Source of the DNA: Arthrobacter ruber
GTDB taxonomy: Bacteria > Actinomycetota > Actinomycetes > Actinomycetales > Micrococcaceae
Assembly: GCF_002954225.1 (NCBI RefSeq)
Contig: NZ_PPTH01000008.1
Coordinates: 1-64,000 of the forward strand
DNA length: 64,000 nucleotides
Direction of reading: 5' to 3'
Shown: piece after piece, positions 39,509-60,896 of the stretch
Layout of the letters: every line of letters starts with the position of its first letter
How positions within the stretch are numbered: the stretch's first letter is position 1
Notes under the pieces: generated by a model
Databases searched by the model: none
Seen by the model: only the letters and a program-made list of their open reading frames with translations
Told to the model about the DNA's origin: nothing
Program-made: the position numbers and the translations under genes

Positions 39509-40801
39509 ATGACGACAGATACAGAAGTCCCGATCACCCTGGAACCTGATCGTACCCAGAGCGCCGGTCCGCTCGTCGATGCCAAGGCCCAGCTGGCGTC
39601 GGCGGTGAAGACCTTGGGGTACGAGGAGGGGCTGCATCAGCTCTTGGCTCAGCCTCGACGGGAGCTGACGGTGTCCGTTCCGCTGCGGCGTGATGACGGT
39701 TCGGTTGAGATTCTCACCGGTCATCGGGTCCAGCACAACTTCTCCCGCGGTCCAGCGAAAGGGGGCTTGCGTTATTCACCTGCGGTGGATCTTGACGAGG
39801 TCCGCGCGCTGGCGATGTGGATGACATGGAAGTGCGCCCTTCTTGACGTTCCCTACGGCGGCGCCAAGGGTGGAATCCGGATCGATCCACGGAAATACTC
39901 CCAGGGCGAACTGGAGCGGGTCACGCGTCGATACACGTCCGAAATTCTGCCTGTCATCGGACCTGAACGGGATATCCCAGCTCCCGATATCGGCACGGAC
40001 GAGCAGACCATGGCGTGGATGATGGATACCTACTCGGTCGCCTCGGGCTACACGGTCCCCGGAGTTGTCACAGGCAAGCCTGTATCACTGGGCGGCTCCC
40101 TGGGTAGGTCCTCCGCAACGTCAGCCGGCGTCGTCCACATCGCCTTGGCGGCCCTCGCTCACCGCGGTATACCGGTTGCCGGAGCGACAGCGGCGGTGCA
40201 GGGTTTCGGCAAGGTCGGGGCAGGAGCCGCACTTTTCCTCGCTCAGGCAGGAGTCAGAGTAGTCGCTATATCGGATCAGTACGGTGCTATTTATGCAGCC
40301 AGTGGTCTCGACATCATTGCGCTGAACGATCATATTGCCAGAACGGGGTCGGTTGTTGGTTTCAGCGCCGCCGAGCCATTGCCAGCATCGGATCTGCTGG
40401 AGCTGGACGTTAGCCTGCTGATCCCAGCCGCCATCGAGGGCGTTCTCCACAGTGACAATGCCGGGCGCGTTCAGGCGAAGATCATCGTCGAAGGGGCCAA
40501 TGGCCCCACAACGGCCGGCGCTGATCAGATTTTCAAGGAGCTGGGGGTGCTTGTCGTTCCGGACATCCTTGCTAATGCCGGTGGTGTCATCGTCTCCTAC
40601 TTCGAGTGGGTGCAGTCCAACCAGGCGTACTGGTGGTCAGCGTCCGAAGTGGACGAACGCCTGGAGCGCCGGATGCTCACCGCATGGCACCACCTCCTGG
40701 ATAGTTCTGCCGCGCGCGGCCTGACATTGCGGGAAGCAGCTACCGTGACCGCGGTCGAACGTGTAGCCGATGCGCACCGCACACGGGGCCTATACCCCTG
40801 A
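39509..40801 (+). CDS. gdhA: Glu/Leu/Phe/Val dehydrogenase (glutamate dehydrogenase type)
   Basis: 430 residues. Substrate-binding Lys in PAKGGLRYSP and catalytic Lys in DVPYGGAKGGIRIDP, with the nucleotide-binding motif VQGFGKVGAGAALFLAQAGV. The C-terminal half contains PAAIEGVLHSDNA, IIVEGANGPTTAGAD and NAGGVIVSYFEWVQ, all characteristic. Interconverts glutamate and 2-oxoglutarate plus ammonia. Placed at the head of an amine-catabolic block, it can regenerate 2-oxoglutarate for the aminotransferase and release ammonia for use by the cell. Symbol by function class. Confidence 0.87.
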   Translation: MTTDTEVPITLEPDRTQSAGPLVDAKAQLASAVKTLGYEEGLHQLLAQPRRELTVSVPLRRDDGSVEILTGHRVQHNFSRGPAKGGLRYSPAVDLDEVRALAMWMTWKCALLDVPYGGAKGGIRIDPRKYSQGELERVTRRYTSEILPVIGPERDIPAPDIGTDEQTMAWMMDTYSVASGYTVPGVVTGKPVSLGGSLGRSSATSAGVVHIALAALAHRGIPVAGATAAVQGFGKVGAGAALFLAQAGVRVVAISDQYGAIYAASGLDIIALNDHIARTGSVVGFSAAEPLPASDLLELDVSLLIPAAIEGVLHSDNAGRVQAKIIVEGANGPTTAGADQIFKELGVLVVPDILANAGGVIVSYFEWVQSNQAYWWSASEVDERLERRMLTAWHHLLDSSAARGLTLREAATVTAVERVADAHRTRGLYP

Positions 40802-40951
40802 GCTCTCCGGACCCCTCAGGCCAGTCAGGCTCACAAGGCAGCAGTTGCAGCGGGCAATTCGAGGGAAGGGGAGCTTTACAAGATCATCATCACCGTCAGG
40901 TACTGGAAGGTGCCGGTCGGGGCGGTCGAACAGTAATCGGAGAGATACGTG

Positions 40952-42160
40952 ATGTGTAGCAACCCATCAGGCAGCACCGGCACCGCCGATGATACGACGA
41001 CGGGGCAGCAGCCCCTGGAGGGGCTGCTTGTCGCCGACTTCTCACGGGTCCTTGCCGGACCACTGTGTACGATGACCCTCGCTGATCTCGGGGCGCGGGT
41101 CGTGAAGGTAGAGCGTCCCGGCGAGGGAGATGACACCCGTAGCTGGGGGCCCCCGTGGTCCGCGACGGGATCCACCTACTTCGACTCCGTGAACCGCAAT
41201 AAGGAATCGGTGTGCCTGGATATCGCCGACCCGCACGATCAGGATCTGGCGCGCGAACTCGCTCTGCGTGCCGATGTACTTGTGGAGAACTTCAAGCCAG
41301 GTGGACTCGACCGGTTCGGATTGGGCTACCCTGCGCTGTCGGCGGACAACCCGAAACTGATCTACGTTTCCATCTCGGGATTCGGGTCTGCCGGCGGCCG
41401 CGACATCCCCGGTTACGATTTCATCGTTCAGGCCCTTGGGGGGTTGATGAGCATCACCGGCGACGCGGAGGGCTCGCCCTACAAGGCTGGTGTCGCCCTC
41501 GTCGATGTACTCACTGCCAAAGACGCCACCATCTCCATCCTGGCCGCGCTCCAAGCCAGGGCACGGACTGGGCGTGGCAGTCGCATCGAGGTGAATCTGC
41601 TGTCCAGCCTGCAAGGAGCACTGGCCAATCAGGGCCAGTCATACCTGGGAGCCGGGAAGGTGCCGGGCCGGATGGGAAACGCCCACCCGTCGATCGTGCC
41701 GTACCAGCTCCTGCAGTGTGCAGACGGACCGCTTGCAGTGGCGTGCGGTAATGACGGCCAGTTCGCCCGCTTCGTGGAGGAACTTGGCGCACTGCCCTTA
41801 GCATGGGACGACCGTTTCGCCAGTAACAGCGCCCGCGTAGAACATCGGGACGAGTTGGTTCCTTTGCTGGAGAACCTATTAGCTGCCGCTTCGACCCAGC
41901 AGTGGCAAGACCGGCTTACTCGGGTGGGTGTACCCGCGGGCCGAGTCGCCACAATAGACGAGGGCCTGACCTACGCTGAAACGCTCGGCCTGAAGCCCAC
42001 TATCGCCCTTGAGAATGCGGCAGGGGTGAGCACCGACCACCAGATACGCCATCCCGCGCTCTGGGAGCCTCCCCTTAAACCTCGCACCCAAGCCCCTCCC
42101 CGTCTCGGCGAACATACCGACCAAGTGGTGTCATGGCTCTGCACTCGTGTCGCCGAATAA
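40952..42160 (+). CDS. Class III CoA-transferase (CaiB/BaiF), candidate glutarate CoA-transferase
   Basis: About 402 residues from ATG at 40952, eight bases after GGAGAG; a GTG one codon earlier is possible. Family III pattern: LLVADFSRVLAGPLCTMTLADLGARVVKVE, FDSVNRNKESVCLDI, LVENFKPGGLDRFGLGYPAL and ISGFGSAGG, with the catalytic Asp expected in VLTAKDATISI. Transfers CoA between acyl-CoA and a free acid. In this block glutarate is a likely acceptor (SUGCT-like), which would give glutaryl-CoA for the dehydrogenase at 45524. Family strong, substrate inferred. Confidence 0.8.
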   Translation: MCSNPSGSTGTADDTTTGQQPLEGLLVADFSRVLAGPLCTMTLADLGARVVKVERPGEGDDTRSWGPPWSATGSTYFDSVNRNKESVCLDIADPHDQDLARELALRADVLVENFKPGGLDRFGLGYPALSADNPKLIYVSISGFGSAGGRDIPGYDFIVQALGGLMSITGDAEGSPYKAGVALVDVLTAKDATISILAALQARARTGRGSRIEVNLLSSLQGALANQGQSYLGAGKVPGRMGNAHPSIVPYQLLQCADGPLAVACGNDGQFARFVEELGALPLAWDDRFASNSARVEHRDELVPLLENLLAAASTQQWQDRLTRVGVPAGRVATIDEGLTYAETLGLKPTIALENAAGVSTDHQIRHPALWEPPLKPRTQAPPRLGEHTDQVVSWLCTRVAE

Positions 42161-42227: not shown

Positions 42228-43724
42228 TCAGTTCGGGCGTTGGCGTAGTGCCAGCCAGAGGGGTGCGAAGACATCAGGGTCATCAAGGCTAACCCCCAGT
42301 AGCGACTGGGCTATTCCGATGCGATGACGTACCGAGTTTCGGTGAATCCCCAAGTCCCGTGATGCGTTTTCCCAGTGGCCTCTGTGACGTAGGTACTGGA
42401 ATACCGTTGCGACCAGATCCGCCCGAGAGTAGGCGGCCAAGGCCTGCACCCAGATATCTGCCTGCGCGTCCTGCCCGCTGCTGACGGCGACCAGCAATCC
42501 CGCCGGTGCCTGTTTCACTGCCTGACGTACAGAGGGGACGGCACCTGGAACTTCGCTCAATGACACCGGGTCGCTGAGGGCTCCTGCCAAGCTCTCGCGG
42601 GCGTCCTCAAAGGAAACACGCGAAGCATCAGGTTCAGGTGTCCCTTCATCTGCTGTCAACACTACGTAGAGGACACCGTTTTCCTCGTGGCGCAGGAGAC
42701 AGGTCGCTAGCGCAGTGCCTAAAGCAGGCAGACCGGCGTCGTGATCCAGCAGCGGGGCTGCTCTCACCAGCGACGACGCATCATCATCAGGATGCATCCT
42801 GAGCCCGAGAACGCGTACGCGTGCTGGCAGGTCCTGCAATCCAACGTCCACAGCGAGCATCCGTGCTGCTTCGGTTTGACCGTGCAGAATCAGTTTCGCT
42901 ACAGCCGAGCCAAGGGCAGCGGTGGCACTGGAAACGACTTCACGCTGGCGAGCCTTAATGGCGAGCAGAATACACACTGTGACGATGACCTGCCGGTCCG
43001 CGGCCGTCAGCGTACGGCCGGGACCGATGGCTAGAAATCCGTGGATATGGTCACCGGAAGCGATGGGGTATTCCACGACAGGCTGGCCGTGAAGCTCGAA
43101 GGTAGCCGCGGAATGAGCGCCCGTCCGGTTCAGTCTGAGCGTTTCGGCATGCAGCAGGGGTACGAGAGATTTTGTATCAGCGGGCCAGAAGGTTTCGGTA
43201 CCGGAATCTACAGGCAGGTATGCAGCCCACCCACCGAGGGCCTGAGCCAGTCCCCGAACGACGGCGGAGGTTGCATCTGGCCGCATGGCGGCTCGCGCCA
43301 GCGCCGTTTGGGTACCAAGGCTTCCCATCAGGTCGGCCTGCCCGCTACGAGCTGATAGGCCCCAGAACGCGCGGGAAACGTGCTGGAACGGTACACCGTC
43401 GGGCACCGTCAGTAAATCGATGCCGGCCTTTGAACATGCTTCTTCGAGATAGTCCGGAACTTCGGCCAACCAAGGACCGAGACCGATGCCCAGCGCATGG
43501 ACCCCTTTGGCACGAAGCCGATGAACGTAGGCGCTGGTGGCAGCCCGTTTACCGATCAGTGGCATACCCGTGGTGAGGAGCAGCTCGCCGCCTTCAAGAT
43601 ACGGCGTGGGATCCTCAAGCTCCGATACATGCACTCCGCTCAGTTGGCGGGGGCGAAGCCCCTGCCCTCCTACCGTCGCAAGGTGAGGACCGAGCTGCGC
43701 GCTGAGTTCAACCAGGGATACCAT
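42228..43724 (-). CDS. PucR-family transcriptional regulator
   Basis: 498 residues. N-terminal PucR domain (VSELEDPTPYLEGGELLLTTGMPL, residues about 33-57), central GGDEF-related segment, and C-terminal HTH_30 of the PucR type: YLRHRGHWENASRDLGIHRNSVRHRIGIAQSLLGVSLDDP. Divergent from the aminotransferase gene, with about 80 bp between the start codons and an inverted repeat at 43746-43766. PucR regulators often activate purine, polyamine or GABA pathways, so it probably controls the aminotransferase and perhaps the whole downstream catabolic block. Convergent with the CoA-transferase. Confidence 0.88.
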   Translation of the reverse strand: MVSLVELSAQLGPHLATVGGQGLRPRQLSGVHVSELEDPTPYLEGGELLLTTGMPLIGKRAATSAYVHRLRAKGVHALGIGLGPWLAEVPDYLEEACSKAGIDLLTVPDGVPFQHVSRAFWGLSARSGQADLMGSLGTQTALARAAMRPDATSAVVRGLAQALGGWAAYLPVDSGTETFWPADTKSLVPLLHAETLRLNRTGAHSAATFELHGQPVVEYPIASGDHIHGFLAIGPGRTLTAADRQVIVTVCILLAIKARQREVVSSATAALGSAVAKLILHGQTEAARMLAVDVGLQDLPARVRVLGLRMHPDDDASSLVRAAPLLDHDAGLPALGTALATCLLRHEENGVLYVVLTADEGTPEPDASRVSFEDARESLAGALSDPVSLSEVPGAVPSVRQAVKQAPAGLLVAVSSGQDAQADIWVQALAAYSRADLVATVFQYLRHRGHWENASRDLGIHRNSVRHRIGIAQSLLGVSLDDPDVFAPLWLALRQRPN

Positions 43725-43745
43725 GGATAAAGTGTCTTATAAATC

Positions 43746-43766: not shown

Positions 43767-43806
43767 TCAATGACGGGACCCTATTCGACTCCGTAGCGTG
43801 GTCAGC

Positions 43807-45207
43807 ATGACCGAACTTCCTCACACCCCGCTGCACAGTACGCTGCCACAGTCCCGCCACCTGACCACGGCTGTGCCTGGTCCGCGCTCCAAGCAGCTCC
43901 ACGCCGAGCGCCTCGCCCATGTGAGCGACGGCTTCGGTATCGTCCTTCCTGTCTTCGTCGATCGCGCCGACGGAGCGATCATCCAGGACGTCGACGGTAA
44001 CCGCTTCATCGACTTCGCTTCCGGGATCGCCGTCACGAGTGTCGGTGCCGCGAACCGCAAGGTGCGCGAACGGGTTGCCGCTCAGCTGGAGCGATTCACC
44101 CATACCTGTTTCATGGTCACCGAGTATGAGTCTTTCACCCAGGTCTCCAAGTGGCTCAACGAGCACACCCCGGGGGACTTCGATAAGCGCACCGCCCTCT
44201 TCTCCACAGGAGCAGAAGCCGTGGAGAACGCGGTGAAGATTGCCCGCTCCGCGACCGGTCGGCCTAACATCCTTGTCTTCGACGAGGCATACCATGGCCG
44301 GAGCCTCCTGACGATGGCGATGACCGCCAAGGAAAATCCGTACCGGCTCAACTTCGGCCCGTTGCCCGGGGAGGTTGTACGCGCGGCATCGGCGAATCCC
44401 CTTCGGCCCTCTGCGTCCACCACCGGTGATGCGATGACTGCCGCCCTTGCGTCGGTGGAAGAAACGCTCGCTCAGCATGGCGCCGATACCTTCGCCGCCA
44501 TGGTTATCGAACCGATTCAGGGTGAAGGTGGGTTCATCGTACCGGTGCCCGGGTTCTTGGCAGGGCTGCGCGAAATCGCGACGAGGCACGGCATCGTTCT
44601 GGTACTGGACGAGATCCAGACCGGCATGGGCCGCACCGGCGCACTGTATGCCAGTGAGCACGAGGGCATTGCAGGGGATATCACCTTGTCCGCCAAAGCT
44701 CTTGCCGACGGTCTTCCCCTGTCAGCCGTGACGGGACGCACCGAATTACTCAATGCAGTCCATGTGGGCGGATTGGGCGGCACCTATGCGGGTAACCCGC
44801 TAGCGTGCGAGGCTGCACTTGCGGTCTTCGAGGAACTGGAGGACGGCGAACTGCTCGCAAACGCTCGCACGGTCGAGACCGTGGCACGAGAACTCCTCGA
44901 ACCTCTGGTCGAGGAGACGGCCATCGTCGCTCAATTCCGTGGGCGCGGGGCGATGCTCGCCCTCGAATTCGCCGACGCCACGACGCTGGATCCTCGCCCG
45001 GATCTCGCCCGTGCGATTTCGAGCGCCTGCCATGCGCAGGGTGTTCTGACCTTGACCTGCGGTACCCACGGCAACGTCATCCGCCTCCTGCCACCTTTGG
45101 TCATCTCCGAGGATCTGCTGCGCGACGGCCTGGGCGTGCTGCACGACGCGATCCTCGAAGCGAACGCCGCGCTCAGGGCGCCGGTACTGGTCGCCGACAC
45201 ACCGTAA
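43807..45207 (+). CDS. gabT: Class III omega-aminotransferase (4-aminobutyrate/5-aminovalerate type)
   Basis: About 466 residues from the ATG at 43807; an upstream GTG three codons earlier lacks a better ribosome-binding site. PLP aminotransferase with FSTGAEAVENAVKIAR, VFDEAYHGRSLLTMAMT, AMVIEPIQGEGGFIV, LVLDEIQTGMGRTG and PLP lysine Lys297 in SAKALADGLP. This pattern matches GabT/DavT, which moves the omega-amino group of GABA or 5-aminovalerate to 2-oxoglutarate. It would yield succinate or glutarate semialdehyde for the aldehyde dehydrogenases next to it, with glutamate dehydrogenase recycling 2-oxoglutarate. Confidence 0.87.
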   Translation: MTELPHTPLHSTLPQSRHLTTAVPGPRSKQLHAERLAHVSDGFGIVLPVFVDRADGAIIQDVDGNRFIDFASGIAVTSVGAANRKVRERVAAQLERFTHTCFMVTEYESFTQVSKWLNEHTPGDFDKRTALFSTGAEAVENAVKIARSATGRPNILVFDEAYHGRSLLTMAMTAKENPYRLNFGPLPGEVVRAASANPLRPSASTTGDAMTAALASVEETLAQHGADTFAAMVIEPIQGEGGFIVPVPGFLAGLREIATRHGIVLVLDEIQTGMGRTGALYASEHEGIAGDITLSAKALADGLPLSAVTGRTELLNAVHVGGLGGTYAGNPLACEAALAVFEELEDGELLANARTVETVARELLEPLVEETAIVAQFRGRGAMLALEFADATTLDPRPDLARAISSACHAQGVLTLTCGTHGNVIRLLPPLVISEDLLRDGLGVLHDAILEANAALRAPVLVADTP

Positions 45208-45523
45208 ACCCCACCCGGAGAATCCACCCGGGCACCCTGGGGAAGTTCGACCGGTTCGAGGTCCATCGGGCGTCCAGACTCCGTCGATCGCGCATCATGA
45301 CGCTAGAGCACGATAGTCGCAGGGTGCGGCAGTGCAGCTGGAGTCGTAGTGGCAGGATCGCGTGTAGTACGTGCTCGGTTGGGTGTTACCCCCAACCAAC
45401 ACCGAGTTTGCAGCATCCACCAGCAAGTTCGAGGGTGGGTCTGAATCGGGCCTGACAAGGCCTCCTGACCGGGTACAGGCGGGATTTCCACGCTGCAGTT
45501 TCGTTTTGAGAAAGAGGACCATC
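45208..45523 (+). promoter_or_regulatory. Promoter/leader of the glutaryl-CoA dehydrogenase operon, with inverted repeat at 45377-45397
   Basis: About 316 bases without a gene between the aminotransferase stop and the GCDH start. GGTTGGG (45377-45383) pairs with CCCAACC (45391-45397) over a 7-base loop, and CTC/GAG symmetry extends it outward (45374 to 45406). It may end aminotransferase transcription or act as an operator for the GCDH operon. No ORF in the gap carries a domain. Confidence 0.4.
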
Positions 45524-46729
45524 GTGACCACCACCACCGAAGCAGCCGCCCGAGCCGGCGTCGAGACAACCCTGGATCCAGCCGATCTCATCGACTTCGA
45601 TTCCCTGCTCACGCCGGAGGAACTTGCCCTGCGCAGCAAGGTGAGGTCCTTCGTGGACGCGCAAATCAAACCCAACGTTGCAGGGTGGTACGACCAGGCG
45701 TACTTCCCGCTGGAGATCGTTCCGGAAATGGCCAAGCTCGGACTGCTCGGCATGCACCTGTCCGGCTACGGCTGTGCCGGGCGTTCGGCAGTGGAGTACG
45801 GTCTTGCCGGTGCTGAGCTCGAAGCCGGCGACTCGGGACTACGAACGTTCGTCTCTGTTCAGGGATCGCTTGCCATGAGTGCGATCTCCAAGTGGGGATC
45901 GGAGGAACAAAAGCAGCAATGGTTGCCGGCCATGGCAGCGGGTGAAGCCATCGGATGCTTCGGGCTCACCGAGCCGTCTGCTGGATCTGATCCGTCCTCG
46001 ATGAAGACTTTCGCCCGACAGGACGGAACCGATTGGGTCATCAATGGAAGCAAGCGATGGATCGGCCTCGCCAGTGTCGCTCAGGTCGCGGTCATTTGGG
46101 CGATGACCGATAACGGGGTCCGCGGATTCGTGATTCCCACCGATACTCCAGGTTTCCGCGCTACGCCTATCGACCAGAAACTGTCGATGCGGGCCTCCAT
46201 CCAATGCGACATCGAATTGACCGATGTCCGCTTGCCCGCCGAGGCCGTCCTGCCGGACGCCACGGGCCTGAGGGGGCCGTTCTCGTGCCTCAACGAGGCC
46301 CGGTACGGCATTATCTGGGGCGCCATGGGCGCTGCCCGCGACTCGTTCGAGGCAGCTCTGTCCTACTCCAAGGACCGGCTTCAGTTCGATAAGCCTCTTG
46401 CCGGTTACCAGCTCACTCAACAGAAACTCGTCGACATGGCGCTCGAGATCAACAAGGGGTTCCTGCTGGCCCTGCACCTTGGCCGGCTCAAAGACGCCGG
46501 CCGGTTGCAGACGCACCAAATCTCCGTCGGCAAACTCAACAACTGCCGGGAAGCGATCGCGATTGCCAGGCAAGCCCGCACCATTCTTGGTGGGAACGGA
46601 GTGACCCTCGACTACTCGCCGTTGCGTCATGCCAACAACCTGGAGTCAGTGCGGACCTATGAGGGCACCGATGAGGTCCACACCTTGATCCTCGGCCAAA
46701 AACTCACCGGCACGCCGGCGTTCCGGTAG
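45524..46729 (+). CDS. gcdH: Acyl-CoA dehydrogenase, glutaryl-CoA dehydrogenase-like
   Basis: About 401 residues from GTG at 45524, following AAAGAGGACC; this length matches GCDH better than the longer open frame. CFGLTEPSAGSDPSSM, INGSKRWIGLASVAQ, CLNEARYGIIWGAMGAARDSFE and the C-terminal RTYEGTDEVHTLILGQKLTGTPAF follow GCDH (YEGTxxIHxLILGRxITGIxAF), with catalytic Glu in YEGT. GCDH oxidises and decarboxylates glutaryl-CoA to crotonyl-CoA. First gene of a run with ALDH and hydroxyacyl-CoA dehydrogenase, consistent with C5 catabolism. Confidence 0.85.
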   Translation: MTTTTEAAARAGVETTLDPADLIDFDSLLTPEELALRSKVRSFVDAQIKPNVAGWYDQAYFPLEIVPEMAKLGLLGMHLSGYGCAGRSAVEYGLAGAELEAGDSGLRTFVSVQGSLAMSAISKWGSEEQKQQWLPAMAAGEAIGCFGLTEPSAGSDPSSMKTFARQDGTDWVINGSKRWIGLASVAQVAVIWAMTDNGVRGFVIPTDTPGFRATPIDQKLSMRASIQCDIELTDVRLPAEAVLPDATGLRGPFSCLNEARYGIIWGAMGAARDSFEAALSYSKDRLQFDKPLAGYQLTQQKLVDMALEINKGFLLALHLGRLKDAGRLQTHQISVGKLNNCREAIAIARQARTILGGNGVTLDYSPLRHANNLESVRTYEGTDEVHTLILGQKLTGTPAFR

Positions 46730-48238: not shown

Positions 48239-49134
48239 ACACCCTCATCAAGAACGTCCTGGTCGTCGGCGCCGGTGTCATGGGGCGCCAGATCGCCATG
48301 TCCGTTGCCCTTGCCGGATACCAGACGACGGTTCAAGATATTTCCAGCGACATGCTCGGTGCTGCCCAATCCAACCTCAACTCCTGGGCGGAGGGACAGG
48401 TAGCGAAGGGAAAACTCGACCGGGTAGCGGCCGACACCACCTTCGACCGTCTCTCTTGGACCACCGACCTCGAGGATGCTGCGTCCACCGCCGACCTTGT
48501 GGTCGAGGCAGCCACCGAACGGCTGGACATCAAAACTGAGATTTTCGCGACGTTGGGTCGGTGCGCACCCCCGCACGCGATCCTCACAACCAATTCCTCA
48601 ACGCTAGGTTCCTCGAAGGTTGCCGGAGCCACCAACCGCCCCGACAAGGTGTGCAACCTCCACTTCTTCAATCCCGCTTTGGTGATGAAGTGCGTCGAGG
48701 TCGTCCGCCACGAGGGAACCTCGCAGGGCACTGCGGATACAGTCCTCGAGTTCGCCAGGCGACTCGGAAAGCAACCCGTTCTGCTGGCACGGGAGATCCC
48801 GGGCTTTATCGCCAATCGACTCATGGGCGCCTTGCAGCACGAGGCCCTCGCCCTGGCTGGCGCCGGGATTGCTACCAAGGAAGACATTGACATCACCGCC
48901 CGGGCCGCCCTGGGCCACCCGATGGGACCCTTCGAGCTGATGGACATGATCGGTCTGGATGTCATCGACTTTATTGCTCAAGCAATCCATGCCGAAACAC
49001 GCCAGGACGTGGACAAGCCCGACCCCACCGTCGCAGCGCTGGTCGCCCAAGGGATGCTGGGGCGCAAGAGCGGTGCTGGATTCTACGTCTATGGACATGG
49101 GCCGGCTTCCTCCACGCCAAGGAAGAGCACTTGA
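48235..49134 (+). CDS. 3-hydroxybutyryl-CoA/3-hydroxyacyl-CoA dehydrogenase
   Basis: 299 residues. NAD motif VVGAGVMGRQIAMSVALAGY at the start, catalytic His-Glu pair in CNLHFFNPALVMKCVEVV, FIANRLMGALQHEALAL, HPMGPFELMDMIGLDV and GMLGRKSGAGFYVY at the end, the complete single-domain HBD family. Oxidises 3-hydroxybutyryl-CoA to acetoacetyl-CoA, the step between a crotonase and thiolase. No crotonase is encoded in this window. Start overlaps the ALDH stop in ATGA. Confidence 0.88.
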   Translation: MNTLIKNVLVVGAGVMGRQIAMSVALAGYQTTVQDISSDMLGAAQSNLNSWAEGQVAKGKLDRVAADTTFDRLSWTTDLEDAASTADLVVEAATERLDIKTEIFATLGRCAPPHAILTTNSSTLGSSKVAGATNRPDKVCNLHFFNPALVMKCVEVVRHEGTSQGTADTVLEFARRLGKQPVLLAREIPGFIANRLMGALQHEALALAGAGIATKEDIDITARAALGHPMGPFELMDMIGLDVIDFIAQAIHAETRQDVDKPDPTVAALVAQGMLGRKSGAGFYVYGHGPASSTPRKST

Positions 49135-52664: not shown

Positions 52665-52686
52665 AAACATAAAGTTTCTAATGTTT
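52665..52686. promoter_or_regulatory. Inverted repeat AAACAT-N10-ATGTTT, candidate operator of the divergent ALDH/APC promoters
   Basis: Perfect 6-bp arms and a 10-bp AT-rich spacer (containing a nested GAAAC/GTTTC pair), in the divergent region 131 bp upstream of the ALDH and about 170 bp upstream of the APC start. AT-richness unlike the flanks supports a regulatory role. The most likely protein is the GntR at 61713 or the PucR at 42228. Confidence 0.45.
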
Positions 52687-52857
52687 AGACCTGAGGCATC
52701 CAGAGTACGTCCACTGGTGGCCTTCAGGGAAGGCATCGGGAGGGTTTCGCAATGCGACTCTTCCCTTCGGCTCCATGAATCATTGCTCCACTTCCTCCTC
52801 TCCGGCCCCGTACCTGCCGGTCGCTGGCTCGGACTACTTCTACAGATGGAGACGCTT

Positions 52858-54354: not shown

Positions 54355-54398
54355 CTGCCGGCACCTCACATGATCGACAACCACCGGAAGGACCTCTC

Positions 54399-55595
54399 AT
54401 GACGACCACCGTCGAAGCTCCCTACTTCAACATCTCCGATCCCGCCTTCGCGATGCACTCCGAAGCGGTCCGCAACGCACGCGAACGCAGCTGGTACGCC
54501 AGGACCAACTACGGCATCGCCGTTCTGCAGTACGAGGACGTTTCCAAACTGCTCAAGAGCCCCAAGCTCCGGCAAGGATCGGCCCGCTGGCCCGAGCACA
54601 ACGGCGTCCACTCCGGCATCTTCTACGACTGGTGGACCAAGAACCTTCTGGTCCTCGAGGGCGAGGACCACCACCGCATCCGCCGGCTGTTGAATCCCGC
54701 CTTTTCCCCGAAGATGATCGCGTCCTTGGTGCCCCGTTTCCAGGCCCTGGCCAACGAACTCGTGGACGCGTTCATCGACAAGGGCCGCTGCGAATTCGTC
54801 CAGGACTTCGCGGAGCCCTACGCCACCCGAGTGCTGACCATCCTGCTCGGCATCGACGAGAACGAATGGCCGAAAATTGCGCAGCTCGCATCAACCATCG
54901 GCCTTGCCCTGGGTGTCACCCTCAAGCAGGACCTGTGGAAGGTGGAAGCCGCCGTCGAGGAGCTCTACGCCTACGCAGAAGACCTCATTAAGGACCGGCA
55001 CCAGAACCCGGGAGACGACTTTGTGTCCAAACTGGTTCTGGCCAATCGTGACGGCGACCGGCTTTCAGATCCCGAGCTGCGCAACGCTCTCGTCCTGCTG
55101 ATTTTCGGAGGCATGGACACCACCCGTAATCAGCTCGGACTCGCTATGCAGTCCTTCATGCACCACCCGGACCAGTGGGAATTGCTGGCGCAGCGCCCCG
55201 AACTGGGCGGCAAAGCCGTCGAAGAGGTCATGCGCATCAACCCCACCGTCACGTGGGTCACCAGGGAGGCCGTCGAGGACTTTGAACACAAGGGCCTGAC
55301 CATCGAGGCCGGTACGACCGTGCACCTGTTTACCCAGGTTGCGGGAACGGACCCCCGGGCCTTTCCCGAACCGCAGATGGACCTTCTCGGAGAGCACGCC
55401 GCGCACTACGGGTTCGGCGGCGGCGTCCACCACTGCCTCGGCCACTTTGTGGCACGAGCCGACATGAGCGAAGCGCTGCCACTGCTGGCAGCGCGCATGT
55501 CCAACCCCCGCATCGCAGGCGACGACGAGTGGATGCCGGATTCCGGTAACACCGGACCGGTCCGGCTGCCCATCACCTTCGACAAGCGGTCCTGA
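54399..55595 (+). CDS. Cytochrome P450, candidate cyclic-amine monooxygenase (CYP151-like)
   Basis: 398 residues from ATG at 54399 with GGAAGGA eight bases ahead. I-helix oxygen-binding motif LLIFGGMDTTRNQLG, K-helix ExxR in VEEVMRI, and heme loop YGFGGGVHHCLGHF with ligand Cys346. The length and the neighbours (CxxHxxC ferredoxin, ferredoxin reductase and glutamine-synthetase-like ligase) match the mycobacterial pip/mor P450s, CYP151, that hydroxylate piperidine, pyrrolidine and morpholine and so open the ring. No membrane anchor; soluble class I system. P450 membership is certain, substrate inferred. Confidence 0.85.
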   Translation: MTTTVEAPYFNISDPAFAMHSEAVRNARERSWYARTNYGIAVLQYEDVSKLLKSPKLRQGSARWPEHNGVHSGIFYDWWTKNLLVLEGEDHHRIRRLLNPAFSPKMIASLVPRFQALANELVDAFIDKGRCEFVQDFAEPYATRVLTILLGIDENEWPKIAQLASTIGLALGVTLKQDLWKVEAAVEELYAYAEDLIKDRHQNPGDDFVSKLVLANRDGDRLSDPELRNALVLLIFGGMDTTRNQLGLAMQSFMHHPDQWELLAQRPELGGKAVEEVMRINPTVTWVTREAVEDFEHKGLTIEAGTTVHLFTQVAGTDPRAFPEPQMDLLGEHAAHYGFGGGVHHCLGHFVARADMSEALPLLAARMSNPRIAGDDEWMPDSGNTGPVRLPITFDKRS

Positions 55596-55676
55596 TTCCG
55601 TTCGACGTTACACACCACCTTCACCCCAGCGCATCGCTGACCGCCCCGCCAGGCACTTTGGAAAGGATCAAGAACC

Positions 55677-55868
55677 ATGAAAGTACATGTCGACCGCAAG
55701 TTGTGCGACAACCACGGCCAGTGCGCTATCGCCGCACCGGATGTCTTCCGCATGAACGACGACGGTGTCCTCGAATACGACGAGAACATCACCGACGACC
55801 AGGTTGATGAGGTCGAAGAAGCTATCGATGTCTGCCCGGTGCAGGCCATCCTGCTGGCCTCCGACTGA
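55677..55868 (+). CDS. 3Fe-4S-type ferredoxin with CxxHxxC motif
   Basis: 63 residues. Iron-sulfur ligands in CDNHGQC (Cys10, Cys16, with His13 in place of the second cysteine) and Cys53-Pro in DVCPVQAI, a three-cysteine 3Fe-4S pattern with His at the variable position. Electron donor between the downstream reductase and the upstream P450. GAAAGGATC precedes the ATG. This His variant is common in mycobacterial P450 ferredoxins, often tuned to a partner P450. Confidence 0.9.
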   Translation: MKVHVDRKLCDNHGQCAIAAPDVFRMNDDGVLEYDENITDDQVDEVEEAIDVCPVQAILLASD

Positions 55869-55905
55869 TCCAACCACCAACCCTTAATCCTCGAAGGAAT
55901 TCCTC

Positions 55906-57135
55906 ATGGTGAACACCACAGAACGGCGCATCGTCGTCGTCGGAGCTTCGCTGGGCGGCTTGCGGGCAGCTGAACAGCTTCGTGCGGCTGGCTGGGATGG
56001 CGAGATCGAGGTCATCGGGGATGAGCCCTACGCACCCTACAACCGCCCTCCCCTGTCAAAGGAGCTCCTTGCCAACCCGGGTCTCTCAGCCGATGAAGCT
56101 CTCGCGAAGGTTGCCTTCCGACGGAAGAAGCAGACTGAGGATGTCACCTTCCGTCTCGGCTCCGCCGTGGTCTCCTCGAACCTTCAGGAACGGGTCCTGC
56201 GCCTTGCTGACGGCACCCAAGTAACCTTCGACGGTCTCGTCATCGCCAGTGGACTGCGCGCACGCCGGCTGACTGCACCCGGACCCATGGGGGGCAGGCA
56301 CGTCATTCGAACCCTTGATGACAGCTTGGCCTTGCATTCCGAGCTGAAACCCGGCACCCAGGTCGTTGTCATCGGCGCCGGCTTCATCGGCTGCGAAGCC
56401 GCCGCCACCGCTTTGGAACTGGGCTGCGATGTCACCCTGGTCGAGGGCGGCAAAGGACCCATGCACCGACCTCTCGGCTCCGATGTTGCCGAGGCTTTCC
56501 GCCGCCGATTGGTAAGGCGCGGTATCACGTGCCTGGCTGATCGCCATGTCGAGAAATTCGAGGCCTGTGACACCGATTCCACCAGAGTAGGCGCTGTCGT
56601 CCTGGCTTCAGGTGAGCGCCTACCTACGGAGGTGGTCATAGAGGCAGTCGGTTCCGTGCCCAACGTCGAATGGCTCGAAGGCAATGACCTGAACCTCACT
56701 GACGGCGTGCTCTGTGATGAATGGCTTCGCCCGGTGGGAACCAGCAATGTAGTCGCCGTCGGAGACATCGCCCGATTCCCGGATCTACGGCTACGCCAGA
56801 CACCGCGCAGAATCGAACATTGGGCCACTCCCGGAGACACCGCCAAGACAGCCGCACGTACCCTCACCGCCGATCTTGCCGGCGCGTCCCTCCCTGATCC
56901 GTGCGACGCACTACCGAACTTCTGGTCGGACCAATTCGGCCTACGCATCTCCGGACTCGGCAGCCCCGCTCTGGCCGATGAACTCGCCGTCATGGAAGGC
57001 ACCCTGGACGACATCGACGCCGGGATCGCGGTCGGTTACTGGCGCGACAGCGTCCTCGTCGGCGTTGTTGTTGCGGGCCTGCCAGCGCAGCGGCTACTGC
57101 AGTACCGCACCCAACTGACTGCTGCCGCGGTCTAA
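55906..57135 (+). CDS. FAD-dependent ferredoxin reductase
   Basis: 409 residues. FAD motif VVGASLGGLRAAEQLRAAGWDGEIEVIGDEPYAPYNRPPLSKELL, NADH motif VIGAGFIGCEAAATALELGCDVTLVE and the second FAD motif VAVGDIARF with PRRIEHW, typical of the putidaredoxin reductase family with its C-terminal domain. Reduces the ferredoxin with NADH for the P450. Directly follows the ferredoxin; GAAGGAA before the ATG. Confidence 0.93.
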   Translation: MVNTTERRIVVVGASLGGLRAAEQLRAAGWDGEIEVIGDEPYAPYNRPPLSKELLANPGLSADEALAKVAFRRKKQTEDVTFRLGSAVVSSNLQERVLRLADGTQVTFDGLVIASGLRARRLTAPGPMGGRHVIRTLDDSLALHSELKPGTQVVVIGAGFIGCEAAATALELGCDVTLVEGGKGPMHRPLGSDVAEAFRRRLVRRGITCLADRHVEKFEACDTDSTRVGAVVLASGERLPTEVVIEAVGSVPNVEWLEGNDLNLTDGVLCDEWLRPVGTSNVVAVGDIARFPDLRLRQTPRRIEHWATPGDTAKTAARTLTADLAGASLPDPCDALPNFWSDQFGLRISGLGSPALADELAVMEGTLDDIDAGIAVGYWRDSVLVGVVVAGLPAQRLLQYRTQLTAAAV

Positions 57136-57167
57136 GCACTTCACATTTCCCTAGAAAGAAGAAACCA

Positions 57168-58601
57168 ATGACGCTCACACCGACCAAAGACGTAACGGAC
57201 ATGTACAAGGCCCTGTCAGAGCTCATGCTCGATAACACCGCCCTCGACCGCCACATCCAGGCCAACCTGCAGCCCGACGTTATTGCCGAGATGCGCAGCA
57301 AAATTGAGGCAGCCGGCGTCGAATACATCTACTACATGCTCCCGACCCTTGGAGCCAGGAACATTGCGAAGATGGTGCCTGCCAACCACTTCGCCCGCAA
57401 CCTCGAAAAAGGCATCGCCTTCCACCGCACCGCGCTGGCCGACCTGCAAACCTCCCGTCTTGGCCACCTCATTGGGGGCGGCATTGAAGCCAAGGAGTTC
57501 GTCGGTATCCCAGAACCGGAAACCTTCACCGTCCTTCCCTGGGACACCAAGGTCGCCCGGATATTCTGCACCGCCTACGAGCCCACACACCTTCCGGAGG
57601 TCGGCGGCCGGCCCCTCGCACTGGACTCGCGGCACCTTCTGCGCATCATGCACGCGGCCTTCAAGCAGGTACACGGCCTCGAGGCACGCTCAGGTACCGA
57701 ACCGGAGATGACATGGGAAGGCGAAGGGCTGGACGTGAAGACCAGGCCCGGCGGATCACCGGCCTACCAGGTCGAGAACCTCGAACGAATGCGCCCGATC
57801 TACCAGCGCCTGGTCACCTACGCCAAAGCCATGGGCCTGGACATGATCGAGGGAGACTACGAGGACGGCGGCCAGCTCGAACTGAACTGGATGTACGACA
57901 ACGTCGAACTCACCGCCGACCGGCTCGTCACCTACCGGCAGATTTGCAAGCAGGTTGCCCGAGAGTTCGGAGTGACAGCATCCTTCATGCCGAAACCCGC
58001 CATCGGCACCATGGGTAACGGGTGTCACCATAACCTCAGCCTCTGGGACGGTGACACCAACGTGCTCGTCAACGAGGGCGTGGACGAACTACACATGAGC
58101 GATATCGGCCGGCACGCTATCGGCGGCATCCTCAAGCATGCCTCGGGCGCAATGCTGATCATGGCTTCGACCGTCAACTCATACAAGCGCTTCTGGGACA
58201 TCGGGCAATTCGCACCCTCCACCATTGACTGGGGCCTCGATTCCCGTGCCGCGCTCATCCGCATCTCCGCCAACGGTCGCATGGAGTTCCGCGTGCCCGA
58301 CGCAATGGTCAACCCCTACCTCTCCCATGCAGTGCTGCTCGCGGCCATGTCCGAAGGAATCCTGAAGCAGATCGATCCGGGCAACCCTGCCGGGGACGGA
58401 CTTCCGACACTGGATCACGGAATCCTGCCCCGGACCCTTGGTGAAGCCATCCAGGCGTTCAAGGACGACAAGCTCGTCCACGACGCGATGCCTGAGAAAA
58501 TGAAGGACGTTCTCATCGAACTCAAGGAAGACGAATGGGCCCGCTACTGCGGGGCCGTCACCGACTGGGACCACGACATGTACTGGGAGTCCATCCCGTG
58601 A
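57168..58601 (+). CDS. Glutamine-synthetase-like gamma-glutamyl ligase (PipC/GS-like)
   Basis: 477 residues. Retains the GS catalytic motifs in altered form: EPEMTW, GDYEDGGQLELNW (metal and glutamate ligands), GTMGNGCHHNLSLWD replacing the usual GSGMHVHQSLW, NSYKRFWDIGQFAPSTIDWGLDSRAALIR, and RMEFRVPDAMVNPYL (flap/arginine). Together these mark a divergent family that ligates glutamate to an amine, as for PuuA, IpuC and the PipC of mycobacterial piperidine clusters. Directly after the P450 trio. The start overlaps nothing but it ends in a GTGA with the next gene. Amine substrate unknown. Confidence 0.82.
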   Translation: MTLTPTKDVTDMYKALSELMLDNTALDRHIQANLQPDVIAEMRSKIEAAGVEYIYYMLPTLGARNIAKMVPANHFARNLEKGIAFHRTALADLQTSRLGHLIGGGIEAKEFVGIPEPETFTVLPWDTKVARIFCTAYEPTHLPEVGGRPLALDSRHLLRIMHAAFKQVHGLEARSGTEPEMTWEGEGLDVKTRPGGSPAYQVENLERMRPIYQRLVTYAKAMGLDMIEGDYEDGGQLELNWMYDNVELTADRLVTYRQICKQVAREFGVTASFMPKPAIGTMGNGCHHNLSLWDGDTNVLVNEGVDELHMSDIGRHAIGGILKHASGAMLIMASTVNSYKRFWDIGQFAPSTIDWGLDSRAALIRISANGRMEFRVPDAMVNPYLSHAVLLAAMSEGILKQIDPGNPAGDGLPTLDHGILPRTLGEAIQAFKDDKLVHDAMPEKMKDVLIELKEDEWARYCGAVTDWDHDMYWESIP

Positions 58602-59314
58602 CCGGAGTACTACGACTCGCCTGCATCGACTCCGAAGCAGCCCCGCTCTTCGACGCGAGCAAGGACGGCAAGACACGCACCGGATACGAACCGGAAGCCG
58701 CAGCGCTGGTTGCCCGCCAGCTGGGTTACACCCTCGAATGGGTGTTCACCGATTGGGACGATATGATTCCCGCCGTGCAGCAGGGCCGCGCTGACGCCGT
58801 GTGGTGTGGGCAAGGAATCATCCCGTCCCGACAGGAACAGCTGAACTTCACTCGCCCCTACGCCGTCTTCAACGAGACAGTTCTTGTGCGCGCAGGTGAT
58901 CCTGCGAGAAAGCCAGAAGATCTCGCTGGCTACCGGATCGCAGCCATCGCCGGAAGCGCAAACATGCGACTGGCGGACACTTTCGATGGTGGCATCACCA
59001 TTCCGTTCGGCAGCTCCGCTGACGTATTCGGGGACATGATTGCGGCGCTGCGGAAGGGCACAGTTGATGCCATGGTCGACGACGATGTCGTCACCGTTCC
59101 GCTAGGCGACGACCCGGATTTCGACATTGCTTTCACGGCCCAGACCGAGAACCCCTGGGGGATCGGCATCGCCAAGCACAACCAGGAACTGCTGCAAACC
59201 GTGGACACAGCACTCGGTGAGGTCATCGCCGACGGGCGACTTGAACCGATTTGGAACAAGTGGATGCCTGACCTGCCCTTCCCTCCCGCACTGTTGAAAG
59301 GCACACGCTCATGA
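58598..59314 (+). CDS. Signal-less amino-acid-type substrate-binding protein, probably cytosolic
   Basis: 238 residues from GTG at 58598 (GTGA overlap with the GS stop). Type II SBP_bac_3 pattern: GVLRLACIDSEAAPLFD, TGYEPEAAALVARQLGYTLEWVFTDWDDMIPAVQQGRADAVWCG, FTRPYAVFNETVLVR, and WNKWMPD near the end. The N-terminus has no signal peptide or lipobox and begins directly with the first beta strand. There is no cognate permease or ATPase nearby. Unusual: it may bind the amine or its glutamyl derivative inside the cell, as a sensor or a scavenger. Function inferred. Confidence 0.78.
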   Translation: MTGVLRLACIDSEAAPLFDASKDGKTRTGYEPEAAALVARQLGYTLEWVFTDWDDMIPAVQQGRADAVWCGQGIIPSRQEQLNFTRPYAVFNETVLVRAGDPARKPEDLAGYRIAAIAGSANMRLADTFDGGITIPFGSSADVFGDMIAALRKGTVDAMVDDDVVTVPLGDDPDFDIAFTAQTENPWGIGIAKHNQELLQTVDTALGEVIADGRLEPIWNKWMPDLPFPPALLKGTRS

Positions 59315-60069
59315 CCCAGGGCACAGCACGCACCCCGCTCATCGGAGTTACCGGAATGTGGTCGAACTCGGTGCATGGCCTGCGTTTTGACGGGCTCGCC
59401 GCCGCCATCGAGGTCCTGCGCTCCATCGTGCGCGCCGGAGGAGAGCCCGTCATCCTTTTCCCCGGATCAGAAACAAACCCCAATGAACGGTACGACGCCC
59501 TCGACGGTGTCGTCGTACCCGGCGGTGCGGACGTCGACCCGACCCGCTACGGAGCCCAGGCCGATGCGACAACCAGGGTGACCGACCATCCGGGGCAGGA
59601 CGAGGCAGACCTTACGGTCATTCGGGGTTGCATCGAGCGCAAGATTCCTCTCCTGCTCATCTGCCGGGGTATGCAACTGCTCAACGTGGACCGAGGCGGC
59701 AGTATGACCCAGCACATACCGACGTCGCCGATCAACCACGTCGACAGCACGCACCTCGTCGACGTCGCCCCGCACTCCAACCTAAGCCGGGCCCTGCACG
59801 GGCAGGATCCCATGGTTTCCTCCTACCATCATCAGGGGGTCGATCGACTCGGGAAGGACCTGGTCGTCGTCGGTCGCGCCGAAGATCACATCGTCGAAGC
59901 GTTAGAAATCCCGGGCGTACCCATGATCGCCATCCAATGGCATCCGGAGGACAATGCCGTAAGCAGCCCCACGGATCACGCGCTCTTCCAGTGGGTCGTT
60001 AATGCAGCGCGAGACCATCACGCGGTCAAGAACGAACGCCGGCCGGCACATCAGGAAGTGAGCGCATGA
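59311..60069 (+). CDS. Gamma-glutamyl hydrolase of the PuuD/GATase1 family, copy 1
   Basis: 252 residues. Class I glutamine amidotransferase-like peptidase C26 pattern: LDGVVVPGGADVDPTRYG, nucleophile Cys in LLICRGMQLLNVDRGG, SSYHHQGVDRLG, and His-Glu in AIQWHPED. Hydrolyses gamma-glutamyl amides such as gamma-glutamyl-GABA. ATGA overlap with the SBP and with copy 2. In aniline degradation the GS-like TdnQ is paired with a GATase-like TdnT; here two such enzymes follow the GS-like ligase. Confidence 0.88.
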   Translation: MTQGTARTPLIGVTGMWSNSVHGLRFDGLAAAIEVLRSIVRAGGEPVILFPGSETNPNERYDALDGVVVPGGADVDPTRYGAQADATTRVTDHPGQDEADLTVIRGCIERKIPLLLICRGMQLLNVDRGGSMTQHIPTSPINHVDSTHLVDVAPHSNLSRALHGQDPMVSSYHHQGVDRLGKDLVVVGRAEDHIVEALEIPGVPMIAIQWHPEDNAVSSPTDHALFQWVVNAARDHHAVKNERRPAHQEVSA

Positions 60070-60896
60070 GCAGGCCCCCCTTGTACCTCTCCCAAGACGA
60101 TGTGACACCCTCCGGTACGCAGGAACTGCCGGAGGATGCGCCGCGGGTGGCCGTCGTCGTCTCCCTGAACTTTCCAGGGCTCACCGCGCAGACACTCGAG
60201 CTGATGCGTCGCTTCACCCGGACAGCACTGCAAACCCTTGTCGACGTCGGAGCAAGGCCGATTCTCGTGGACTCCAGCGCACCTGAACTCCCGGACCCCT
60301 CCATTACCGGGACAGCCGACGGAGTACTCGTCCTGGGGGGAGGGGACATTGATTCCTCTCTCTATGGAGTGGAGGGGCCGGTGCCCAACGAATACGGCGT
60401 CGATCCACGTGCTGATGTGTACACCATGCAACTCATCGACCAGACCCTGGACCGCGACGCTCCGATGCTGGCGATATGCCGCGGTTCCCAACTGCTCAAC
60501 CTCACGTGCGGAGGGACGATCATTCCAGACCTCGATCCGTGGCACCTGCATCGTGGTGGACCAGGCCAGCCCGTCTTCCTCGATGAGGACGTCACCATTA
60601 CCCCGGGCAGTAAACTCGCCGGCATTTTTGAATCTGAAAAGATCACCGTACGCTCAGGCCATCATCAGGCGGTAGGGAAGATTGCGCCCAGCTTGACACC
60701 CAGTGCCGTCGCCAATGACGGAATCGTCGAAGCCACTGAACATCAGCAAGCTACCTGGGTGGTTGGTGTTCAGTGGCATCCAGAGGATGACGATGGGTCT
60801 GCTGAGGATCGACGGAATCTCTTCACGGCGTTCGTGGAGCAGGTGCAGTCCAACGGCCGCCGAGCTTCTCGCGCTTCGATGACTAAAGGCCACTGA
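60066..60896 (+). CDS. Gamma-glutamyl hydrolase of the PuuD/GATase1 family, copy 2
   Basis: 276 residues. Same family as the upstream gene but clearly divergent: DGVLVLGGGDIDSSLYG, nucleophile Cys in LAICRGSQLLNLTCGG, RSGHHQAVGKI, GVQWHPEDDD. Carries an extra N-terminal segment of about 25 residues. Both catalytic Cys and His-Glu are retained, so both appear active. They may act on different gamma-glutamyl amides or form a heteromer. Followed by a strong hairpin, end of the operon. Confidence 0.88.
   Translation: MSRPPLYLSQDDVTPSGTQELPEDAPRVAVVVSLNFPGLTAQTLELMRRFTRTALQTLVDVGARPILVDSSAPELPDPSITGTADGVLVLGGGDIDSSLYGVEGPVPNEYGVDPRADVYTMQLIDQTLDRDAPMLAICRGSQLLNLTCGGTIIPDLDPWHLHRGGPGQPVFLDEDVTITPGSKLAGIFESEKITVRSGHHQAVGKIAPSLTPSAVANDGIVEATEHQQATWVVGVQWHPEDDDGSAEDRRNLFTAFVEQVQSNGRRASRASMTKGH

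Follow-up and report, generated by a model that had tools for sequence, protein, structure and literature searches.

The Puu pathway of Escherichia coli is a gamma-glutamylputrescine route served by PuuA, PuuC and PuuD. For cyclic secondary amines, cytochrome P450 systems are described from mycobacteria: according to the accessible text of PMC9477822, PipA of Mycobacterium smegmatis is induced on piperidine, and MorA of Mycobacterium sp. HE5, together with its partners, oxidises morpholine; the title of the pip paper also names PipR, a regulatory protein. The same text of PMC9477822 places PipA-like P450/glutamine synthetase (GS) clusters (bioI/pipA) in Gulosibacter molinativorax ON4T, whose P450s share ~53% identity with PipA of M. 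smegmatis and ~52% with MorA of strain HE5. Here, a gene cluster at positions 39509–60896 of a 64,000-nt window (the whole stretch of DNA analysed, part of a 78.6-kb contig, C17, in the 3.66-Mb genome of Arthrobacter ruber) is compared with these systems. A P450 operon is located next to a glutarate module, and the cluster, as judged from its sequence, probably catabolises a cyclic secondary amine of five carbons, for which piperidine or a close derivative is the likeliest choice. Coordinates of all features are collected in Table 1.

A sequence-only reading of this DNA had proposed a route from an amine via glutarate to acetyl-CoA, and most of the families named in it were recovered: glutamate dehydrogenase (GDH), class III CoA-transferase, omega-aminotransferase, glutaryl-CoA dehydrogenase (GCDH), 3-hydroxyacyl-CoA dehydrogenase (HAD), thiolase, APC permease, P450, ferredoxin, reductase, GS-like ligase and two PuuD-like hydrolases are present by family. 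Three aldehyde dehydrogenases (ALDHs) had been counted, but only two are located in the cluster, the third being found outside at 33391–34941; likewise, the GntR-Cache regulator exists but lies at 61713–63203, beyond the cluster end. Genes omitted there were a PucR-type regulator, a solute-binding protein (SBP) and a trio of alcohol dehydrogenase (ADH), Baeyer–Villiger-type flavin monooxygenase (BVMO) and HSL-family esterase.

The right-hand half consists of eight same-direction genes (52681–60896) with intergenic gaps of at most 81 bp, the last four overlapping by 4 bp, in the order APC permease, P450, ferredoxin, reductase, GS-like ligase, SBP, PuuD1 and PuuD2. As in PipA/MorA systems, the genes of a single-cluster ferredoxin and a ferredoxin reductase adjoin the P450 gene. 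An alignment scan of named genomes provided the best 80 of 554 confirmed P450 relatives (57–82% identity), among which the closest named ones belong to Arthrobacter hankyongi and two Paeniglutamicibacter (81–82%). The window P450 is 60–67% identical to 18 mycobacterial P450s of the PipA/MorA kind, and the P450 of Gulosibacter chungangensis (L053) is 50–56% identical to the same 18, close to the 52–53% printed for Gulosibacter P450s against PipA and MorA; the usual rule for a P450 family is at least 40% identity. Gauged indirectly through these mycobacterial and Gulosibacter relatives, the window P450 appears PipA/MorA-like. On a plasmid of Streptomyces sp. NBC_00111 (L023, 8054–15092), a 57% P450 relative is found with ferredoxin and reductase in an ectA/ectB/ectoine synthase cluster that also holds an adenylating enzyme and a carrier protein, a possible biosynthetic use of this P450 family. 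A 507-aa minus-strand open reading frame (ORF) overlying the permease gene (52861–54384) gave no NCBIfam match and was taken as spurious.

The left-hand module comprises the genes of the CoA-transferase, the PucR regulator (minus strand), aminotransferase, GCDH, ALDH (ALDH1) and HAD, followed by the thiolase and a succinate semialdehyde dehydrogenase (SSADH)-like ALDH (minus strand). A glutarate CoA-transferase and a GCDH, by which a glutarate pathway was recognised, are both present. The former was typed by its best NCBIfam match (succinate-glutarate CoA-transferase, 350.9 bits, under the cut-off of 750) and the latter by its best matches, which are solved GCDHs; the true start of the GCDH gene is probably near 45520. 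ALDH1 is probably the glutarate semialdehyde dehydrogenase. No enoyl-CoA hydratase/crotonase was seen among the cluster genes, which leaves the beta-oxidation set of crotonase, HAD and thiolase incomplete there; four genes of the enoyl-CoA hydratase family are located on contigs C15 and C9, and the thiolase has four further matches in the own genome.

For the comparison with other genomes, those loci were used that extend at least 7.5 kb to both sides of the P450 gene (66 loci), with identity thresholds set per gene (at least 50% for GS); 14 of the 80 loci, with less than 7.5 kb on a side, and the plasmid loci L022–L027 do not enter these counts. Operon genes were matched in 57 (GS), 56 (SBP), 49 (PuuD1), 46 (APC permease) and 43 (PuuD2) of the 66 loci, GntR/Cache in 47, ferredoxin in 42, reductase in 35 and the SSADH-like ALDH in 16. 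The nine loci without a close GS are of Alphaproteobacteria or a proteobacterial metagenome-assembled genome (GS 29–39% identical, no SBP), and four Halomonas-type genomes (L043–L046) have GS and SBP without a PuuD match. The P450–GS operon is hence a common, mainly actinobacterial unit. GDH and thiolase, which had been claimed as cluster parts, are present in the window but are not conserved parts, as GDH, HAD and thiolase were matched in none of the 66 related loci. In Mycolicibacterium chlorophenolicum (L057, 2490–14799), SBP and PuuD1 each occur in two copies, ~11 kb apart, which suggests a duplicated operon.

The adjacency of the two modules seen in the window recurs in several lineages. 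At least two of GCDH, CoA-transferase, ALDH1 and aminotransferase were located within ~10 kb in 13/66 loci, namely nine mycobacterial ones (in two arrangements), Streptomyces sp. SID14436, Microtetraspora glauca, Gulosibacter chungangensis and Rhodococcus wratislaviensis, with varying gene orders and strands. In G. chungangensis, GS, SBP, PuuD1, PuuD2, GntR/Cache, APC permease, CoA-transferase and GCDH are found in one locus. As controls, 25 other genes of this contig, 19 of them inside the window and 6 outside, were searched in the same way at 45% identity, and each was matched in 0/66 loci, except for two ALDHs at 1/66. Since both modules neighbour each other in other genomes while the controls reach 0–1/66, the linkage exceeds chance, and a chance neighbourhood of housekeeping genes was ruled out.

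In the same family, the P450 was found at E 1e-110 in 11/129 genomes, the own genome included, and in 0/5 other genomes of the genus. GCDH is located ~6–27 kb from the P450 gene on the same contig in eight of the other ten P450 genomes; in the remaining two, it is on other contigs of a fragmented assembly (G1123) or 82 kb away (G1071). Six of these eight clusters were read, and all have the CoA-transferase, PucR, aminotransferase, GCDH and ALDH; HAD and the SSADH-like ALDH were each found in 4/6, and HAD further in 3/3 additional same-family clusters read. Across the same-family clusters read, the CoA-transferase is 67–76%, the aminotransferase 68–79% and HAD 64–70% identical. The glutarate module is divergent from the P450 operon in 5/6 clusters; that of G1122 is not divergent and differs in gene order. 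The remaining two of the eight share their coordinates with P. gangotriensis and P. terrestris, two of the additional clusters read, in which GCDH is 18 and 27 kb from the P450 gene; A. hankyongi is a further case (~15 kb).

From these genes we infer the following reactions, together with the substrate, the order of glutamylation and the regulation. The amine would be imported by the APC permease and hydroxylated by P450, ferredoxin and reductase at the carbon adjoining the nitrogen, whereupon the hemiaminal would open to 5-aminopentanal. The GS-like ligase would cap the free amine with glutamate, so that 5-aminopentanal could not re-cyclise; the SSADH-like ALDH would make gamma-glutamyl-5-aminovalerate, from which the PuuD-like hydrolases would release 5-aminovalerate. 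Aminotransferase, ALDH, CoA-transferase and GCDH would lead from 5-aminovalerate via glutarate semialdehyde, glutarate and glutaryl-CoA to crotonyl-CoA, and a crotonase encoded elsewhere, HAD and thiolase would finish to acetyl-CoA. The GntR-FCD-Cache protein would sense the amine in the cytoplasm and the PucR protein would govern the glutarate half. Comparative genomics supports the amine-to-glutarate route of the sequence-only reading via the linked halves. Ring opening of pyrrolidine would give a C4 product, that of azepane a C6 product and that of morpholine an ether acid; a piperidine-type substrate is favoured because the glutarate CoA-transferase and GCDH serve a five-carbon dicarboxylate. 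With this scheme, the use of pollutants and drug fragments of the piperidine type by bacteria acquires a complete route that is open to testing.

The GS-like ligase and the hydrolases had been assigned no role in the earlier route. A Puu-like gamma-glutamylation loop around the aminoaldehyde would be the most economical reading of them, because the best solved relative of the ligase is a glutamate-methylamine ligase and any PuuD-like gene accompanies it in 51/57 GS loci (both genes in 41). The ligase would probably form a gamma-glutamyl-amine. At family level, the combination is of the Puu type, a GS-like ligase with a partner resembling a gamma-glutamyl-gamma-aminobutyrate (GABA) hydrolase, with models below equivalog cut-offs; the translations of both hydrolases contain the CRG and WHPE motifs (Cys/His/Glu). 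That the GS-like enzyme merely assimilates ammonia freed from the amine, with the PuuD-like proteins acting elsewhere, is unlikely: ammonia assimilation is suggested for the Gulosibacter GS from transcription in the accessible text of PMC9477822, and the best NCBIfam models here are type III glutamate-ammonia ligase (279 bits) and type I GlnA (217 bits), followed by gamma-glutamylputrescine synthetase (199 bits), all below cut-off, but both the solved relative and the recurrent PuuD-like partners argue against it. Gamma-glutamylation would give the GS-like and PuuD-like companions of PipA-like P450s a likely job.

Several observations weigh against the assignment of the cluster to a piperidine-type amine. 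Among the families shown, the thiolase alone passes a curated NCBIfam cut-off, and the cluster functions are therefore given at family level. On the ligase, the type I GlnA model scores above the gamma-glutamylputrescine model, which keeps these models from deciding on its substrate, and nothing singles out one ALDH for the glutamylated aldehyde, for which the SSADH-like enzyme was assumed. A second GCDH (79% identical) is encoded on contig C8 of the own genome, beside its own CoA-transferase. GCDH is also common in the family (90/129 genomes), and its mere presence was dropped as a co-occurrence signal in favour of physical distance alone. Sugar genes made up most of the linkage controls, and the loci, being related, are not phylogenetically independent. 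A 57% relative is located in the Streptomyces ectoine-type cluster, so identity between P450s is no sufficient guide to the substrate. Finally, 53/66 loci lack two glutarate genes within ~10 kb and no GCDH was found at E 1e-100 in Chromohalobacter (L045), which carries P450 and GS, so other carriers of the operon may use other amines. It is accordingly conceivable, but rather unlikely, that the substrate of the window operon, too, is a different secondary amine (pyrrolidine, morpholine, azepane, an N-alkylamine or an alkaloid), with the glutarate module serving lysine, cadaverine or 5-aminovalerate and linked to it only through omega-amino acids. The unlinked loci and the ectoine-type relative speak for this, as does the reported range of PipA/MorA-type P450s (piperidine and morpholine, pyrrolidine according to the title of the pip paper, and hexamethyleneimine as proposed in PMC9477822). 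Against it, the linkage recurs across arrangements and lineages and includes GCDH and the glutarate-type CoA-transferase, which are unneeded for C4 or C6 amines; a piperidine-type substrate is thus preferred.

The SBP is an odd, directly testable part of the operon. Its start codon overlaps the GS stop, a stop in another frame lies at most 5 nt from the chosen start in 65/67 relatives, and the highest 12-residue Kyte–Doolittle mean in the first 40 residues is at most 1.72 in 67/67 (median 1.2), against 2.02–2.46 for three exported SBPs used as controls. In the rows shown, the hydropathy peak belongs to the start of the conserved domain, the first strand of which sets in only a few residues behind the start codon. 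The operon genes of the window include neither an ABC permease nor an ATPase; with no signal peptide in 67/67 copies and no ABC partner genes, a part in an ABC importer was rejected. R78 and D162 do not vary (48/48) when the window SBP is aligned with 47 of the 66 complete relatives. Both align with residues of an ancestral Arg/Gln-binding protein that presumably hold the alpha-carboxylate and the alpha-amine. The predicted structure (mean pLDDT 95) matches Arg, Gln and opine binding proteins. Because of the invariant dyad, the lack of a signal peptide and the structural matches, the SBP is expected to have an intracellular ligand with an alpha-amino-acid moiety, and the gamma-glutamyl intermediate is an attractive candidate ligand.

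The regulator gene faces the P450 operon and encodes a GntR-FCD protein fused to a Cache domain (Pfam MCP-like_PDC_1 above cut-off, dCache_1 below). A GntR match was found in 65/86 loci, in 63 of them with a separate adjacent Cache gene, in 2 without and in none fused. A fused protein is also encoded in the same-family genome G1122, ~6 kb from the P450 gene, which makes an assembly error unlikely; four further full-length matches in the family are 28–31% identical, two with an in-frame stop. GntR/Cache matches at E 1e-25 occur in 27/129 family genomes, compared with 11 for the P450, and such pairs are not tied to the P450 operon alone. The own genome has a second GntR/Cache gene pair at C16:455127–456526, away from the cluster.

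The model of the Cache domain (pLDDT 88) has amine-sensing receptors as top fold matches, namely McpX, McpU, TlpQ, CqsR, PctD, PacA and 3LIB; among the first 15, which include the amino-acid receptor PctA, TM-scores are moderate (0.47–0.67 by query length). With PctA ligand residues named after the accessible text of PMC10104139, a profile alignment (window and 25 of 63 proteins) places W364 and F365 on the W–Y pair and D411 on the Asp, and M362 at the position of the carboxylate-binding Arg (R126, before W). Counted in 61 proteins (window and 60 of the 63 with ORFs <420 aa), W364 is kept in 58, F365 in 45 and D411 in all 61. The domain agrees with the dCache_1AM pattern, as the aromatic pair and the terminal Asp are kept and the Arg corresponding to R126 of PctA is absent. 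W333 is likewise invariant (61/61), but the alignment to PctD is weak (E 0.005) and establishes neither a correspondence of W333 to PctD W155 nor the counterparts of R103/D133. Fold and residues suggest a cytoplasmic sensor domain resembling amine receptors.

In the accessible text of PMC10104139, intracellular dCache_1AM proteins of Actinobacteria are described whose genes form two-gene operons with that of a transcription factor, a figure legend giving GntR; no target operon is named there. The link of GntR/Cache pairs to the P450–GS operon made here is new as far as the literature examined shows. It is a tentative proposal, which may well fail, that the SBP is a cytosolic, operon-dedicated carrier or sensor for gamma-glutamylated intermediates (or glutamate/glutamine) and that the adjoining GntR/Cache pairs are the amine switch of the operon; the fusion in the window and in G1122 would then indicate that the GntR and Cache proteins work together. 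The SBP, translated in tight coupling to the GS-like ligase, would hand the labile gamma-glutamyl-aminoaldehyde to the ALDH and the hydrolases; if true, a fold of transport proteins would have been turned into a metabolite chaperone within the cell. Some of the actinobacterial Cache proteins that sense amines intracellularly would obtain a concrete target operon.

The ADH–BVMO–esterase trio ends 145 bp upstream of the GDH gene on the same strand, and its link to the cluster is uncertain. The sequence FQGIAFHSANW of the flavoprotein presumably represents the BVMO motif FxGxxxHxxxW. The trio was found in 1/66 loci, that of Leucobacter sp. cx-328 (L099; ADH, BVMO and HSL esterase 60/55/45% identical), between PuuD2 and P450 and beside an opposite-strand GAF/PucR-type regulator gene; the trio and the P450 may therefore share a substrate that contains a ketone or secondary alcohol, unless the trio is a separate cyclopentanone-type funnel to glutarate. 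At E 1e-150, the window BVMO was matched in 0/247 other sampled genomes of the order, and other matches in a phylum sample are at most 46% identical. A 63.7% BVMO relative is encoded on the Rhodococcus rhodochrous plasmid pGD02.2.1, adjoining an ADH and a hydrolase. Pathways of the cpn type lead from cyclopentanol via cyclopentanone, valerolactone and 5-hydroxyvalerate to glutarate, and the trio could feed the glutarate module in this way as a second funnel, which is very unlikely: its position close to GDH and the related BVMOs on Phyllobacterium and Haematobacter plasmids, grouped with an Fe-ADH, an SSADH and an alpha/beta hydrolase, are in favour, but nine same-family clusters have the module without the trio, each with an aminotransferase, and no glutarate gene was seen in the P450 locus of Leucobacter cx-328.

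Table 1 Features of the amine cluster and its flanks in the window (function given at family level)
Feature	Coordinates	Strand	Remarks
Zn-type ADH	35559–36887	+	NCBIfam NDMA-dependent ADH 248.6 bits, below cut-off
BVMO	36914–38410	+	PDB best-named: cyclohexanone, phenylacetone monooxygenase
HSL-family esterase/lactone hydrolase	38410–39363	+	Abhydrolase_3 216.6 bits; NCBIfam LipP1 278 bits, below cut-off
GDH	39509–40801	+	NCBIfam GdhB 513 bits, below cut-off; 0/66 related loci
Class III CoA-transferase, glutarate type (GcdG-like)	40949–42160	+	NCBIfam succinate-glutarate CoA-transferase; CoA_transf_3
PucR-family transcription regulator	42228–43724	-	Pfam PucR and HTH_30; 40–60% identical in same-family clusters
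Omega-aminotransferase (GABA/5-aminovalerate type)	43798–45207	+	NCBIfam PRK06058 607.8 bits, cut-off 639
GCDH	45371–46729 (longest ORF)	+	M. smegmatis GCDH 3SWO, E 6e-163
ALDH1	46748–48238	+	NCBIfam ALDH families, below cut-offs; 65–70% identical in same-family clusters
3-Hydroxybutyryl-CoA-type dehydrogenase (HAD)	48235–49134	+	NCBIfam PRK08268/PRK05808, below cut-offs
Acetyl-CoA acetyltransferase (thiolase)	49544–50731	+	TIGR01930 402.9 bits, above cut-off
SSADH-like ALDH	51161–52534	-	NCBIfam PRK09406 509 bits, below cut-off
APC-family amine/amino acid permease	52681–54354	+	NCBIfam APC families, below cut-offs; 46/66 loci
P450, PipA/MorA-like (CYP151-type)	54399–55595	+	Heme motif FGGGVHHCLG and I-helix GGMDTT in translation
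Small single-cluster ferredoxin, 63 aa	55677–55868	+	Fer4_15/Fer4_13
Ferredoxin reductase	55906–57135	+	NCBIfam 3PPDioc_HcaD 201 bits, below cut-off
GS-like ligase	57168–58601	+	Best PDB match glutamate-methylamine ligase 9qur; 57/66 loci
SBP_bac_3 protein (SBP), no signal peptide	58598–59314	+	Start codon overlaps GS stop
PuuD-like gamma-glutamyl hydrolase 1	59311–60069	+	NCBIfam PRK11366 91 bits, below cut-off
PuuD-like gamma-glutamyl hydrolase 2	60066–60896	+	NCBIfam PRK11366 75 bits, below cut-off
GntR-FCD regulator fused to Cache domain, 496 aa	61713–63203	-	Pfam GntR, FCD

An adenylate kinase gene (61081–61653) is located between the operon and the GntR-Cache regulator; it was matched in 1/66 related loci, and another adenylate kinase gene is located on contig C15. 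Elsewhere in the window, the minus strand at 30621–33037 encodes an AAA ATPase that carries a fused GNAT acetyltransferase domain (31721–33037), then a shorter AAA protein (30621–31325). A plant-sugar region at 3926–25621 comprises a SorC-type sugar-binding regulator, an FGGY kinase, an epimerase, a sugar ABC transporter, a LacI regulator, an alpha-L-rhamnosidase, and GH3 and GH2 enzymes.

The novelty once claimed for the cluster holds in part. The operon with PuuD-like hydrolases and GntR/Cache is widespread in Actinobacteria and partly in print, but glutarate coupling to a PipA-like P450 operon was not found in the literature examined (most subscription papers being outside its scope), nor was an SBP beside PipA-like P450s; in section 8 of PMC9477822, neither an SBP nor a Cache sensor nor glutarate coupling is mentioned. 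For G. molinativorax ON4T, that section describes neighbouring genes of a PipA-like P450, a ferredoxin reductase, an electron-transfer protein and GS, with hexamethyleneimine as proposed substrate and GS for ammonia assimilation. The dCache_1AM operons of Actinobacteria, as far as the accessible text of PMC10104139 describes them, share the GntR factor, the cytoplasmic Cache domain, a fold like that of amine receptors and the aromatic/Asp pattern with the window, where the two proteins are fused.

On plasmid pGKT2 of Gordonia sp. KTR9, the RDX region (L022) has a 62% identical P450, a 55% identical GS and GntR-FCD and Cache genes; it differs in that a flavodoxin-P450 (XplA-like) is added and no SBP, PuuD-like or glutarate matches were found in the locus. 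We take the genes of this region to be xplA/xplB. At 12473–19484, FCD and Cache genes are separate and GS is fused to the reductase (814-aa ORF). The RDX genes of pGKT2 seem to sit in a remnant of the P450–GS operon type, on which the accessible text of the RDX paper PMC10820124 holds nothing.

With the E. coli Puu pathway, as model scores indicate, the cluster shares a GS-like ligase, gamma-glutamyl hydrolases and an ALDH, whereas no PuuB-type oxidase was found among the cluster genes, two hydrolases are encoded and the P450 would supply the aldehyde. With the pip and mor loci, it shares the P450 family (by indirect identity) and the ferredoxin and reductase partners. Presumably, the pip locus also has a GS-like neighbour, and PipR is of the GntR type. 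In contrast to these loci, the glutarate module is located beside the operon here, and permease, SBP, two PuuD-like genes and a Cache sensor are present. In the cluster, a P450 amine system of a known kind is thus joined to a C5 funnel that is found again in relatives, and two unusual parts, the SBP and the GntR-Cache fusion, are added.

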